From: Trichobilharzia regenti
Lineage: Eukaryota; Platyhelminthes; Trematoda; Strigeidida; Schistosomatidae
Assembly: GCA_944472135.2 (NCBI GenBank)
Contig: OX235262.1
Coordinates: 53,912,440-53,976,439, forward strand
Direction: 5' to 3'
Length of the DNA stretch: 64,000 nt
The position numbers and the translations under genes are program-made. The notes below the pieces were generated by a model. The model saw only the letters and a list, made by a program, of their open reading frames with translations, had not been told where the DNA came from and did not search any database. The number at the start of each line of letters is the position of its first letter. Position 1 is the stretch's first letter. Positions 16,400-61,915 of the stretch are shown here, piece after piece.

Positions 16400-17225
16400 C
16401 GTCCGAAGCCTAGATGTTATCTGTAAGTAATGACTATTTCGCCTCTTAAATTAATTAATTCAAACTAATTGACTTTTAGGATCGATAATTTAATAATATT
16501 GATTAATTTCTACATCATTTCTTTAACGTATACACTGAATAGTTATAGTTAAAGCTTTTATAACAAAATCATAAAATCATTTATCAGCGATATTCACTGG
16601 CTTAATTTTGTTAGTTTATTTTAAAGGTCTGAGTGAACGATTATAAATAGGGACATCCTTTATCTGTTTAGAGCAAAAACGTGGTCTGATTAATAAACTA
16701 ATAGTAGTTTGATAAATAGAGGTGATGCATTGGTAATCTCAGCTTATCAGTATTTCTTATCCAAACTCTTTGTTATTTGACTGTGTGTTTAAAGTTTTGG
16801 AGGGATAAGCCGATTTATTTATTTGGTGGACGATGATTAACAGTGGAATCCACAATACTCATTTTATCCAATTTGAGACTTATCGCCCGGATAAACTTGC
16901 AGTCCCTAGTGAGCGATGGTATTCCCACCTAGACTGGACCACTGCACCCATAACACCGAACGCCAAAGCACTACTCTCTAAACAACTTGAGCCACAAAAG
17001 CCACCTCTTTTGTAATGGGTATCACTTATTATTTGTTTAAATCCATTTCTTTTTTTCCCACTGATTTACTGGACATAGTCGAAGTGTCCGTACGAGAAGC
17101 CTACATGTAAAGAGAGGCCGAACATTTTGGTCCAACCAATCAAAGGGGAAGACAAAACTGACAAGTATTTAGTTTGCCCAAAATACTAACACTAACCTCG
17201 CCTAGTCTACTAGCTGTCTAGGTTC
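16400..17225. other. No gene recognised
   Basis: AT-rich sequence. If the ORF at 15963-16397 is a real last exon, its intron and earlier exons would lie here on the minus strand, but none was identified. The segment after about 17100 may belong to the 5' region of the RTE-a copy. Confidence 0.3.
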
Positions 17226-19320
17226 CTAGCCGGTCCCAAGCCCGAGTAAAGAGGGAGGGTCGGCTATGGGGCTAACAACCCTACCCCACAAAACCAAACA
17301 ATCTGCTAAATAAACTTCTAAGCACAAGAAAAATATCAGAAATAGAAAAAGTGTAAAAAACAAACTTATTCGTTGCTGCAATCGGAGAGGGGAAGTGATG
17401 CGGGCTGGTGAAGGCCAGTCTGCCAGCCAGCCGATGAAAGCAAAAATAAGAATGGGGACGTGGAATGTCCGTACAATGTGCGAATTCGGCAAGGAAGGCT
17501 GCCTAGGTGACCAAAGAAATGAGAAGATATGGTATAGAAGTGCTGAGTCGCGGCAAGGAATAGCTGTCAATGGACACCACCTGGAAGCTAATAGAAGAGG
17601 GGACAAGAGGATGGTGAAAAAGAAGATGACTCAATGCAAAGATGGACAAGAGAATAGAAGGAGAAGCCGAGTTCAATGCACATTGTACTGAAGGAAGAAG
17701 TGAAGAGTGCTAGGTAGGACAAGAGACACACTGGAAACTGAAGCAGAACAGACAGGCTGCAGTTAAAAGAGACCTGGGAACATTATATCAGATGAGTAGG
17801 TCTCTATCCGGGAAAATATCAATTCAAGTGATGAATTCAACAAAAGATGTTCAAGGAAACCTATTCACCATGGAGGAGGAACAAGTAAAACAATGGACTG
17901 ATCACTTTAGAGGACTGTTGAGTTGACCATCACCTGCAACTCGCCCACAAATACCCCCACCACAAACAGCACGCACAGGACTGCCTGCCAGTGGACACCA
18001 GTCCTCCAGCTTAAGCAGAAATCTTGAATACGATGTAGCTACTGAAGTCCGGTCGGGAACGCAGCAGGGCCAGACAGAATGGCCCGAAGCACTAAAAATG
18101 GACACAGAGGCTGCAGCAGATATGTTCACGGAATTACTGCAAGAGGTTTGGATGGAAGGAAGAGCAGCTAATGATTGGAAGAAAGGTTACCATGTCAAAC
18201 TACCAAAGAAGGATGACTTACGCCTCAAGTTTTTATCAACCTCATTCAACAGCTGGCTATATGATAATGCCATGTGTCAAGTGATCCATAAAGCCAAACT
18301 CCGCGGGCCGTTTGAAGTGAATACAGGAGTAAGACGATGCTGGCTGCCTATTATCACCGATGATAATCCTAGTTGTGGTGGACTGGTATTGCATCAAACT
18401 GTGTACTTTGACTAAGAAGACAGGAGTATGTTGGACCACTGATAAGAAGACTCTAGAAGATCTGGATTTTTCCTGTGGATAATTTATGTAGAATGTCACA
18501 CAAACTAGTAGGCTTGCAGGCGAAAATCAACAAACTGGCTGAAGAGGCTGGAGGCGAAGACAGGACTCTAGTGGCGCATAGAGAAGACGGAGTATATGAA
18601 GATGACCAAACAATACCAATAGAAACGACAACCATCACCAATCACCACCAATGGGAGAGATTTGATAGAGGTTACTTCCTTCACTTATCTGACCAAGAAG
18701 CACGGTTTTAACTACAGGCAGTTGGAACGGATGAAGATGTCAGAAGTAGGCAGCCAGAATCGGAAAGGCAACATACGCTCTAAACCAACCTGAAACCAGC
18801 TTCGAAATCTTCTGCACTTCACTCAGCCACTATAAACAACGGGATACGGATTTTGAACACAAATGTGAAGTCAGTCAGCTGGTTCTTCAATACAAGTCGG
18901 AAACGTGCACTGTGTGTCACGAAAAGTATTTCTAACAGGCTACTGCAGACTTTTATCAACAGCTGCCTTCGTCACATTCATGCTGAAGATGAAATGCCCA
19001 GACTGAAGGAATTAGCAACAAGAAACTCTGGGTGGGAGCAAACTAATAAAGAGCTTATTGCTCAACAAATATGCAGTAGAAAATGGTGATGGATGGATCG
19101 GGCATACATTGAGGAGGCGCGCCAGGCCACCACTCGAGTGGAGTCTAAATGCGACGCAATGAGTAGGTCATCCTTGGGTGACATGGAGGGGATCGTGTAG
19201 TGGGGAGGAGATAAGAGATTATGAGCACTCATGGAGCCGGATGAAGAGGACAGCAGGTAAACGTGGAGATGTGTTGTTGAAGCCCCATGTTCCACTTGGA
19301 ACCTAAGGGAATGATAATAA
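17226..19320 (+). pseudogene. RTE-a non-LTR retrotransposon, decayed and internally deleted
   Basis: Blocks in order: the start of an apurinic-type endonuclease (KIRMGTWNVRTMCEFGKEG, about 17.43 kb); the RT segment EVWMEGRAANDWKKGYHVKL (about 18.15 kb); a VNTGVRRCWLP block (about 18.32 kb); LVGLQAKINKLAEEA (about 18.5 kb); FINSCLRHIH (about 18.95 kb); a WERMDR-like tail (about 19.09 kb). The 3' region contains GCCCCATGTTCCACTTGGAA and closes on GATAATAATTATT. Stops and frame changes interrupt every block and most of the endonuclease and RT palm are gone. The 5' limit is approximate. Confidence 0.7.
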
Positions 19321-22740: not shown

Positions 22741-23587
22741 CAAAGATTTCTGGACTTCTCCTGAGTCTTGTGAGATTCGGCAGCGTATTCATGCAGATTA
22801 ATGTGCTTCATTCTTGTATTCATACTACACTATAGTTATTGTGGATTCTTATTCTAGGTGGCTAGAAGTCATAATTACAGACAGTCCCAACGGGAAATTC
22901 ACTCAAAGAGCTTTGAGGAAGATTTTTAGTCGAGAAGGAATTCCAGCTGTCTTAATTACTGATAATGGTACTCATTTCACTGAGAACTTTAGTGATTGGC
23001 TTAAACATATAGGTTGTTGTCATTTGTACACAGCACCACGTCATCCTCAGTCTAACGGGTTGGCGGACAATTTCGTAGGAACAATAAAGAGTGCCTTAGT
23101 ATCAATGAGTCCTGGGAATCTTGACAAGCTAGAGAGATGTGTGGATAACTTCTTACTTCAATACTGCAATGCAGAACACACAAGTATCCATGAAAGCCCT
23201 GCTGAGCTGTTCAAATCTCGAATTCTCCCAATGCATCTGATGTCCACGACTTCTGATGTACATTATTATAGAGTGAATAACTATAGACCTTCTGCTTGAA
23301 TCATACGACAAAAAAGGGGAAATTGAATGGTGAACATATGAGAGACCAAAGATCATTCATTTCACAACAGACACATGGATCAAGTGAAAATAAATGAAGT
23401 AGATCGTTCCGATCACAATCTTAATAGTTCCTTTACTAATCCTCATTTTGTAGATAATTCAGAAATAAGTCCAGATGATACCGATGAAAACAATATCACA
23501 GAATCAGTTAGAAGATTGGAGAGACTTGCAGGTAGAACAAAACCTAATTATAAACATGCATGGAGACATAACAGAGAAGATTTGTAG
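22740..23587 (+). pseudogene. Gypsy integrase and pol C-terminus remnant
   Basis: Frame 22814-23299 (161 aa) covers most of the integrase core: IVIVDSYSRW (first Asp), VLITDNGTHF (second Asp), then HPQSNGLADNF. The third catalytic residue, normally the Glu in GLAE, reads Asp. The C-terminal part continues in another frame at 23375-23587 with VDNSEISPDDTDENNITESV, which matches the tail of the fusion ORF at 25973-27415. A stop separates the two frames. Confidence 0.75.
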
Positions 23588-23798
23588 CTCAAGTGAATGA
23601 TTTGCAATTAATAGTATTCTCTGAGCTGGTTGGTTTAGTTGCGGTAAAGATGGTTACCGGGAGACGCAATTAGATCACTCATGAAGAAATTTAAATCATT
23701 TCACTTTATGCTAAATATTGCGCTGAAGATGTTATCCAGAAGGACGACGAAAGCTCCGCAACTAAACCAGCCAACTCAGAGAACACCATTAATTGCAA
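23572..23798 (+). mobile_element. Inverted-repeat element carrying a hammerhead ribozyme fold
   Basis: A 227-bp insertion between the gypsy pol stop and its 3' LTR. Arms 23600-23644 and 23756-23800 are 45 nt each and complementary except for four positions, all transitions. The flanks look like a 16-bp target duplication with two mismatches (23556-23571 and 23799-23814). The interior holds a hammerhead core. The layout resembles the ribozyme-bearing terminal repeats of Penelope-like elements, which is inferred, because no coding sequence is present. Confidence 0.65.
23718..23761 (+). ncRNA. Hammerhead ribozyme fold (type I-like)
   Basis: Stem I TTGCG/CGCAA (23718-23722 with 23757-23761), core CTGAAGA (23723-23729), stem II GTTATCC/GGACGAC capped by AGAA (23731-23748, one mismatch and one wobble), then GAAA (23749-23752). 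GCTC follows, ending just before the expected cleavage site at 23756/23757. All invariant core positions (CUGANGA, GAAA, UH) are present. Stem III is only the self-complementary GC, as in the minimal hammerheads described in Penelope-like elements, which may need dimerisation. Confidence 0.6.
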
Positions 23799-23827
23799 AT
23801 GCAAGGAGACATTAGACATGTGGCGGA

Positions 23828-24034: not shown

Positions 24035-24240
24035 TATCCCATATGGTCCTACAGGAGGTAAATCGTGAATCCAAATAGCTCTGTGGTTAAGTCGCTATCT
24101 GCAGTATTGCATGACTCTGGTTGAAATCTCATAAGGGGCATGAGTTCGTTAAAATTTTCAGATACGCTTTGTTGACGAGTGCCAACTAACACAAAACCTA
24201 GGTCCAAGGCTTCCTGCCGATTGTCTCCAGCCATGTAAAA
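24035..24240 (+). mobile_element. SM-alpha-type repeat with nearly complete hammerhead
   Basis: The tRNA-like head is at the left (ATAGCTCTGTGGTTAAGTCG, degraded B box GGTTGAAATC). The hammerhead lies at 24166-24210: stem I GCTTTG/CAAGGC intact, core TTGACGA, stem II GTGC around CAACTA with ACAC, AAAA for GAAA, CCTAGG as stem III, cleavage triplet GTC. The tail is CTTCCTGCCGATTGTCTCC. Three core or stem substitutions suggest it is no longer active. Confidence 0.65.
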
Positions 24241-24748: not shown

Positions 24749-24959
24749 ATTCCATTATAGATAAGATTTTATTTTGATAAATCGCACAGTGTTTACAGTT
24801 ATATGAACTGATGACGTTTCGAGCACAAACTATTGCTCATAATCATATCAAGTTACTTGATATGATTATGAGCAACAGTTTGTGCTCGAAACGTCATCAG
24901 TTCATATAACTGTAAACACTGTGCGATTTATCAAAATAAAATCTTATCTATAATGGAAT
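24749..24959. repeat. Giant near-perfect palindrome, copy 1
   Basis: Two 105-nt arms (24749-24853 and 24855-24959) are reverse complements with one mismatch around a single central T. The right arm reads GAGCA ... TGCTC GAAAC GTC ATCAG (24870-24900). This has the stem II, GAAA, GUC and stem I pattern of a hammerhead, but the core before it is ATGATTA rather than CTGANGA. The following TACTCTACCACAGTGCCCAA is shared with copy 2 at 31434-31640. Probably two PLE termini joined head to head. Confidence 0.8.
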
Positions 24960-30125: not shown

Positions 30126-30879
30126 TGCTACCAGTTATGACACTAGACATAGCTGCTAACAGTATCTTCATTTGGTCACGATCATACAGACTTCCACCTA
30201 GTTTTCATATCAATAATTGGTATATAACATCACCAAAGCCATCTGCTTACTTAATTCAAACAATAATGAGTTGTATAGATGAGATATTTCACCAGTTTTC
30301 CATTAGGTTATTTAATTTGAACGCTTGGTTAGAAGCTTTAATTAAATAGATGAATCAGCCGCGATTTACACAAGATAATATGAATTCCACTCGTTTCAGG
30401 CTGGCAGTGACCAAAGTTTTCGCTTTATTCTCAGTGATCATTGAATTTGTCAGTATGATTTTAACAAACCAGAGCTAACTCACCAAATCCAGTCAGTGTA
30501 CTTTTACTTATTCACTTTTGTTAGCCTTTTCGGTAATACTGAGTGAATAAGAGATTGAATGAATTAGGTTTACAAAATCAAAATATATATATTCAGTGAT
30601 TCGGTGAACTATGCAGTAATCAGTCACTTACAAAATGAAGTTCAAAGTCGATGTAGTTGTGCTTTTCCAGTTGGATGGTTTACTTGCAAAGTTTTAACTG
30701 AAGTCTGCTCTCAAGATGTCTATAAAGACAATCGAAGCGTGACAAATAAATCATTCAGCTAACAGAACACAACCACATCAATATCATTCACCTGGACTAC
30801 AAATCCTCCCCATGAAATTTTAAAGCATAAAACATTCTTCATAATTTCCCATATCGATGAATCTAATCTAACTTTTTAT
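30126..30879. other. No gene recognised; one unassigned frame
   Basis: A frame running from the SINE junction to 30349 gives LPVMTLDIAANSIFIWSRSY and a further 50 residues with mixed composition. It has no motif or clear splice site, so coding is unproven. The rest is AT-rich. Confidence 0.3.
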
Positions 30880-31433: not shown

Positions 31434-31640
31434 CTATGGATAAGATTTTATTTTCATAAATCACACAGTGTTATACAGTAATATTAACTGATGACGTTTC
31501 GAGCACATACTACTACTCACAATCATATCAAGTCACTTAAGTGATATGATTATGAGCAATAGTATGTGGTCGAAACGTTATCAGTTATTATTACTGTATA
31601 ACACTATGTGATTTATCAAAATGAAGCCTTATCCATAATG
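31434..31640. repeat. Giant palindrome, copy 2
   Basis: Arms of about 97 nt (31434-31530 and 31542-31640) with more mismatches than copy 1 and an 11-nt centre. The shared text (ACTGATGACGTTTCGAGCAC, ATGATTATGAGCAA, CGAAACG, and the right flank TACTCTACCACAGTGCCCAA) shows that it belongs to the same family as 24749-24959. In the hammerhead-like part GTC has become GTT and stem II has one mismatch. Confidence 0.75.
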
Positions 31641-32027
31641 CAGTTATACTCTACCACAGTGCCCAAGTTTTTTACTTATATCAAATTATTTAACAATTTC
31701 CGCACCTCAAAAATGTACAGAATTTCGTAACATTATGTCATCTAGGCTAACAGATTTCAAGACGAAAAACATATATAGAGGAATCTATAAAACAAAGTAT
31801 AGCTTGCTTTGAAAAACATCATATTACAGCCGACTGGTCATCAATTTTCTGTTTGCCTACATAATTGTCAACTGGAACCCAAGTATCATGATGTAAATTT
31901 CCTTAATTCACCTCACATTGACACCTGTAGACGTTATTTGGATTTGGGGAATGTAAAGGATTTCAACGGAGGAAGCAGGAGAAAACGGTAGACAATATGT
32001 GGTGTTTTGGTATCCTAATAGGCAGGT
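31641..32027. other. No gene recognised
   Basis: AT-rich. The first 40 bases are the right flank of the palindrome family. A 60-codon frame (31809-31991) has no recognised motif. Confidence 0.35.
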
Positions 32028-61640: not shown

Positions 61641-61915
61641 CCTGATTGATAAAATTCAGTTTGCACCAATTAAAGGACTGGTTAGACACATCACACTAGT
61701 TACTAGTGTCCAATGAAAGTATCCAATGTAGTCCTACAGGAGTTCGATTGAGAACCTGAATAGCTCAGTGGTTATGTCTCTGACTGCAGTGCTGGGTGAT
61801 GAACCTCAGCAGGTGCATGAGTTTCTTCGAGGTTGCAGATATGCCTTTCTGATGAGTCCCACCTAGCACGACAGCCAGGTTCAAGGCTTCCCGCCAATTT
61901 CCTCCAAACATCTAA
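61625..61915 (+). mobile_element. SM-alpha-type repeat, end of one unit and most of the next
   Basis: 61625-61745 is the end block (AAATTCAGTTTGCACCAATT, CTAGTTACTAGTGTCCAATG). 61746-61915 starts a new unit with TAGCTCAGTGGTTATGTCTC (A-box-like) and carries a hammerhead at 61843-61887. Its stem I is GCCTT/AAGGC, the core CTGATGA is intact, stem II is GTCC/GCAC around CACCTA, then GACA for GAAA and GGTTC near the cleavage site. It closes with the TTCCCGCCAATTTCCTCC tail. Head-to-tail arrangement as in SM-alpha arrays. Confidence 0.65.

Follow-up and report, generated by a model that had tools for sequence, protein, structure and literature searches.

What kind of element is the short sequence of Trichobilharzia regenti that combines long inverted arms with a hammerhead-like ribozyme motif, and does it move on its own? 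It lies within a stretch of 64,000 nucleotides analyzed here as a whole (the window), and the initial annotation, made from the sequence alone, had taken it for a non-autonomous unit derived from a Penelope-like element (PLE) and moving with its own ribozyme. Our analysis indicates that positions 23570-23799 are very probably a short, truncated twin-primed insertion of a PLE, which encodes a reverse transcriptase (RT) and putatively a GIY-YIG-type endonuclease, in this schistosomatid fluke. The inserted sequence derives from the PLE 5' region, with its pLTR, hammerhead-like motif, and initial codons. The element is an ordinary product of a known element kind, with a PLE hammerhead-like motif, and offers a useful view of PLE integration.

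Positions in the PLE are given on a reference stretch R (L129:800-1230), which places the predicted ribozyme cut at R333/334 and the two start sites near R376 (site 2) and R409-413 (site 1). On this scale, the window copy consists of antisense R412 to R333 joined to sense-oriented R221 to R377 (Table 1). The inverted arms (23600-23644 and 23756-23800) are 45 nt long and 91% complementary, their four mismatches being all transitions. Arms and mismatches are as first described, but the left arm is not terminal, as a leader of about 30 nt precedes it. This leader was considered as a Pol III SINE on account of a tRNA-like A box, a candidate dropped once it was recognized as the inverted PLE tail. 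Folded as RNA, the window copy reaches −80.1 kcal/mol (z −6.7), a strong fold due to the inverted arms. The ATG of the PLE frame overlaps the ribozyme core, its A being core position A9, and the frame continues through arm 2; another copy, L136, has the same start codon and one stop further on. The near-duplication of gypsy sequence reported at the flanks was recovered as a direct repeat of the gypsy-like target, an uninterrupted relative of which is found elsewhere in the window (26068-25963, minus strand).

Table 1 Features of the window element and of a second fold-back insertion (window positions).
Feature	Position	Strand	Remarks
Target-site duplication, left copy	23556..23569	.	ATGCATGGAGACAT; 14 bp, 13/14 identical to right copy
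cDNA-A, antisense PLE copy	23570..23643	-	Runs from start site 1 at the tail (near R409-413) to R334, the first base past the predicted cut; matches R333-412
Leader, inverted PLE tail	23570-23599	-	About 30 nt; part of cDNA-A
Arm 1	23600-23643	-	Part of cDNA-A
Junction base common to both pieces	23644	.	1-nt overlap (gap -1); A can reach R333, B starts at R221
cDNA-B, sense-oriented PLE 5' region	23644..23799	+	R221 to start site 2 (about R376; BLAST match to R377)
PLE-type hammerhead motif	23718..23761	+	TTGCG-CTGAAGA-T-GTTATCC-AGAA-GGACGAC-GAAA-GC-TC-CGCAA
Stem I	23718-23722/23757-23761	+	
CUGAAGA	23723-23729	+	
First PLE codons	23729..23800	+	MLSRRTTKAPQLNQPTQRTPLIAN; starting with the ATG, its A being A9 of the core
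Extra U	23730	+	
Stem II	23731-23737/23742-23748	+	
Loop of stem II	23738-23741	+	
GAAA	23749-23752	+	
GC (stem III)	23753-23754	+	
UC	23755-23756	+	
Predicted cut	23756/23757	+	
Arm 2	23757..23799	+	PLE sequence from just after the predicted cut to start site 2
Target-site duplication, right copy	23799..23812	.	ATGCAAGGAGACAT; 13/14 identical to left copy
Second fold-back insertion, diverged sister PLE family	30653..30812	-	Relatives carry the same ribozyme layout

The derivation from a PLE is borne out by the sequences that adjoin related copies. Reading of L129 and L139 showed a PLE-like C-terminal frame followed by the inner part of the element, the hammerhead, and arm 2, with the inverted leader coming next in L129. 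A 101-aa frame in L166, which contains L129, has the inner part and arm 2 just downstream, and two of the five homologues of this piece, from T. regenti, are named GIY-YIG. The sister copy L218:30-536 matched RVT_1 above cut-off (E 2.5e-9), and a piece of L228 gave an RT match just below it (E 2.1e-6). The L218 piece after the RT has 28 homologues, several with PF26215 and two with PF01541, the best being 84% identical and from T. szidati. The PLE pieces themselves scored below cut-off or not at all for GIY-YIG in Pfam, and one matched PDDEXK_15, also below cut-off; the family is therefore called a PLE from its GIY-YIG-named or PF01541-bearing homologues and the RT domain in L218. Two further PLE hallmarks were found, as the sampled copies carry a pLTR with a tail in inverted arrangement, and target-site duplications flank all 27 of those with both ends visible as well as the window copy. 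Searches of viral contigs gave 0 matches to the tail pattern and no RT relatives, and a PDB sequence search with the RT piece returned nothing useful.

The species' own genome (954 Mb, 548 contigs) was searched at the DNA level with 23572-23798, and 40 of 4364 first-look candidates were scored. Among the matches listed, ten others cover nearly the whole element at 82-90% identity, and 30 cover only the inner part and arm 2 at 92-95%; in 11 more, leader and arm lie in inverted orientation at sites of this kind. In a first set of 15 fold-back copies, the outer ends fell at R406-419 and R374-380, the inner ends differed, and 14 of the 15 had a 9-16-bp duplication. Nine pattern matches, four of them already in the set (the window, L149, L153, and L154), behaved likewise. 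As these first sets had been found with queries containing the window's own arrangement, a junction-blind sample was drawn with a 62-base query made of the tail and about 22 nt of the arm only. The best 40 of 2194 first-look candidates were taken and all 40 examined; among them are the locus from which the query was taken (L193 = L153) and three copies with the same A end within 0.2 Mb (L223-L225) that may be duplicates. Insertion ends throughout are BLAST ends, good to a few bases.

In the junction-blind sample, the other end was visible for 27 of the 40 tail (type A) ends, and it was always of type B (27, against 0 of type A), falling at R372-383 in 27/27 and thus placing a second start site about 37 nt upstream of the tail site. 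For the remaining 13 tail ends, no second end was visible within the 1.5-3 kb searched, so that the pairing rule covers 27 copies. Target duplications (score of at least 7.5) were present in 27/27 matched flank pairs compared to 32/702 mismatched ones, with lengths of 9-16 bp (median 13) around insertions of 85-1589 bp (median 599). Anchoring on B ends instead, the left end was visible in 20 of 33 cases and was of type A in 20/20, with a duplication in 18/20; ten of these 20 (L149-L158) had been ranked by their match to the whole window element, tail included, and without them type A was found in 10/10 and a duplication in 9. In copies with both ends visible, the two sites are hence used one per end, and these common ends are best read as two reverse-transcription start sites.

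The inner junctions behave differently from the outer ends. In the 13 direct junctions of the blind sample, A pieces end anywhere from R33 to R350 and B pieces from R118 to R350, with no repeated value. When all samples were pooled, two junctions appeared twice each among 34 distinct direct-junction insertions (L175/L177 and L154/L157), at different targets. These recurrences are what a PLE-derived short family of about 227 bp, propagating as a unit with its ribozyme as first proposed, would produce, and the many short copies with the same outer ends and target duplications, together with the ten nearly full-length matches at 82-90%, fit such a family as well. However, insertions bounded by this pair of ends vary in size between 85 and 1589 bp, the blind sample holds no repeated junction, and the junction-sharing pairs (87.5% and 91.7% identical) show no greater similarity than is seen between copies whose junctions differ (up to 93.1%). 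Since sharers are no closer kin and there is an overlap of a few bases where their pieces meet (gaps of -2 and -3), the recurring junctions are more simply read as repeated joining at short matches. Copies of a retrozyme-like family, made from one short unit, would have the same inner structure, whereas here the junctions vary. The expectation that genome copies would share ends and target duplications therefore held for the outer ends and the duplications but not for the inner junction, and a short family moving with its own ribozyme is very improbable. Each fold-back copy is best explained as a separate insertion event of the parent PLE.

An inverted repeat could also arise by snap-back, the self-priming of a single cDNA or antisense transcript, as proposed for rotifer Penelopes in the portions of the rotifer study considered here (PMC3846280), where it explains inverted pLTRs. 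Snap-back accounts for head-to-head inverted pLTRs and for palindromes, but the observed right end is neither variable nor at the tail in any of the 27 paired copies. Moreover, in 7 of the blind sample's 13 direct junctions the B piece extends further upstream than the A piece, a configuration that could not result if B had been copied back from A. We consider snap-back unlikely and retain twin priming as the reading of these insertions.

The hammerhead-like motif has CUGANGA, GAAA, a UH at the cut, and stems I and II. The complete core initially reported stands as to the order of its parts and its 5-bp stem I (5/5 pairs); its 7-bp stem II, however, pairs in only 6/7 positions, with one A.C mismatch, and its spacing departs from that of the canonical core by an extra U between CUGAAGA and stem II. 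An extra nucleotide after A9 is reportedly tolerated in a viroid hammerhead. Stem III is, as had been noted, a GC dinucleotide and has no loop, so that it cannot form in the monomer. With descriptors written after the motif had been seen, a strict one was matched in 0/100 shuffles and a loose one in 7/100, and the motif's relaxed score was reached in 3/300. The alignment filter was passed by 47 homologous stretches (from the window and 37 retrieved loci); allowing one extra nucleotide, 35 of them keep the core pattern, and 13 have both stems perfect. The motif is accepted as real because of this homology rather than the shuffle statistics, which alone would not exclude a chance resemblance. 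The sister PLE family appears on reading to have the same ribozyme layout with a changed stem II.

Two further approaches added no support. The hammerhead covariance models of Rfam, a type of model proposed beforehand as a check, miss the motif at 23718-23761 and also in L136, L141, L144, and L154, including copies with good stems such as L136, where the stems are perfect. Stem covariation gave no proof of the ribozyme: for 14 sequences chosen from 36 distinct ones, the pairing was reached by 201/500 shuffles and the covariation score by 77/500. Activity of the motif as a ribozyme, with protein present or as a dimer, is considered likely. A DNA transposon of the Foldback or MITE type, its ribozyme-like motif being fortuitous, would account for the long inverted arms, and the motif taken alone is near chance in the shuffles; this explanation is almost certainly wrong, as the sequence is that of a PLE, the duplications vary from 9 to 16 bp, and the ends are asymmetric.

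Other hammerhead-like sequences were encountered in these searches. L136:289-334 (plus strand) holds a well-kept Hammerhead_1 (50.8 bits, above the gathering score). The ribozyme pattern occurs in at least 120 stretches of viral contigs, and 108 of the 120 among the matches listed have three or fewer outer stem-II pairs. Viral contigs L106 and L117 contain hammerhead-like stretches with the extra U and GAAACGTC; their 6-bp stem II has a different sequence in each contig yet pairs in both.

The inverted piece of the window copy stops precisely at the predicted cut (R334/R333), as would be expected if the tail-side cDNA had run off the 5'-OH end of hammerhead-cleaved RNA at 23757. In the pooled set, 8 of 34 A ends likewise lie five bases or less from the cut, most of them in copies found with the window element as query. 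In the blind sample, however, 37 of the 40 tail-side cDNAs cross R333/334; none ends at R331-336 and only three end at R328-338 (L199 and L213 at R329, L219 at R337). The cut is also crossed in 12/15 and 8/9 copies of the other, overlapping sets. As 37/40 cDNAs read through and none ends within three bases of the cut, uncleaved RNA is the usual template, and cleaved RNA as the source of these insertions is quite unlikely; a minority may nonetheless derive from it, and the end of the window A piece at the cut may be due to chance. An RNA 5' end at R220-222 is not supported: many copies of the first search ended there, but the query held that junction, and in the blind set none of the 13 direct-junction B ends and a single A end (R222) lie near it.

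These observations suggest the following course of integration. The PLE protein would cut both target strands about 13 bp apart, and the two free 3' ends would prime reverse transcription of the PLE RNA, one using start site 1 and its counterpart using start site 2, which lies some 37 nt closer to the RNA 5' end. Extension of the two antisense cDNAs in that direction would cover the first codons, as well as the hammerhead in most copies, before an early stop. They would then be joined head to head, gap filling leaving the target duplication, and the tail would correspond to the stretch between the two start sites. The fold-back and the 30-nt tail on the left arm only would arise because both pieces copy the same RNA stretch, and the hammerhead motif would be carried along because it is located at the start of the PLE reading frame, without defining the ends. 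Among the points against this reading, recurring junctions are also expected from a short propagating unit, although micro-overlap can give the same result, and start-site use by the Anolis PLE PAc in vitro was equal between strands in the part of the PAc study drawn on here (PMC11167929). We lean slightly towards a broader proposal, in which every integration would be obligatorily two-sided, the strands priming at two different fixed start sites, one each, with the tail marking one particular strand, uncleaved RNA serving as template, and the hammerhead acting outside integration.

The sample of 40 thus gives three readings, namely fixed start sites used one per end, variable junctions, and no clear trace of a cleaved template, which bear on PLE integration, the one-sided tail, the inverted pLTRs, and the role of PLE hammerheads. 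The same end-pair scan is applicable to any PLE-bearing genome. The element kind is already known, but the strictness with which start sites are paired may be new. A literature search pairing Penelope with twin priming returned no paper on PLE integration by title, in a limited collection that is no proof of absence.

The window holds several other repeats and ribozyme-like sequences. In the second fold-back insertion, the A piece (about 117 nt) runs through a decayed antisense ribozyme, the B piece measures about 43 nt, and the target duplication is weak (9/12). Two decayed SMalpha-like SINEs, each preceded on reading by a tRNA-like head, match Hammerhead_1 at 24166-24210 and 61843-61887 (both plus strand; 26.0 and 20.3 bits, below the gathering score of 34). 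A type-P1 twister ribozyme match lies at 17189-17263 (plus strand, 49.2 bits, E 6.4e-8, below the gathering score of 67.2). A near-perfect palindrome of 211 bp (24749-24959, 98.6%) has a diverged relative at 31435-31688; another hammerhead-like motif, with the extra U and CG at stem III, is found on both strands of the former and on one of the latter. The core of this motif keeps 4/6 fixed positions and its top score of 18 was reached in 71/300 shuffles, so that recurrence is its only support. Part of the palindrome's relative (31471-31601) and a fold-back PLE insertion (L154:659-826) gave several Rfam microRNA-precursor matches, below gathering scores; such matches are a warning for fluke microRNA annotation, or may indicate a source of hairpins. 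Also present are a large inverted repeat (13727-14091/14822-15190, 96.5%), an exact 644-bp direct repeat (1243-1886/3581-4224), and another element whose RT is 75% identical over 83% of its length to a T. regenti protein.

L1 twin priming joins a pair of cDNAs, one from each target strand, head to head; here, by comparison, the process would operate in every sampled insertion with both ends visible, and from fixed internal start sites. PLE minimal hammerheads are said to cleave as dimers, and the present motif resembles them in its type I layout, its almost absent stem III, and the palindromic GC adjoining the cut. It differs in having an additional U after A9, ahead of stem II, at the point where core and ATG overlap, a trait that may be usual in PLEs. 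The SMalpha/Sjalpha SINE-like elements of schistosomes, from the same host family, also carry a type I hammerhead in a retroposon, according to the portion of the source used here (PMC8490949); unlike the PLE motif, the SMalpha-like copies of the window are separate elements that weakly match Rfam Hammerhead_1.

Penelope/Poseidon-clade PLEs, such as Pen2a of Adineta vaga (PMC3846280) and PAc of Anolis (PMC11167929), have inverted pLTRs and an optional tail of 30-40 bp, as described in the sections of these papers considered here. The T. regenti family shares with them an RT and, putatively, a GIY-YIG-type endonuclease, a tail of about 30-37 nt at one end with an inverted pLTR piece at the other, a short target duplication, a pLTR reaching into the first codons, a ribozyme at the frame start, and start sites within the frame. 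Unlike what these sections describe, the ends here are always one of tail type and one of non-tail type (27/27 visible), and insertions can be as short as 85 bp. The same part of the PAc paper (PMC11167929) also proposes that the tail is the stretch between two start sites, and reports that the PAc ribozyme cleaved only with protein present and that ribozyme mutants left insertion unaffected in vitro, in agreement with the read-through of the cut observed here.
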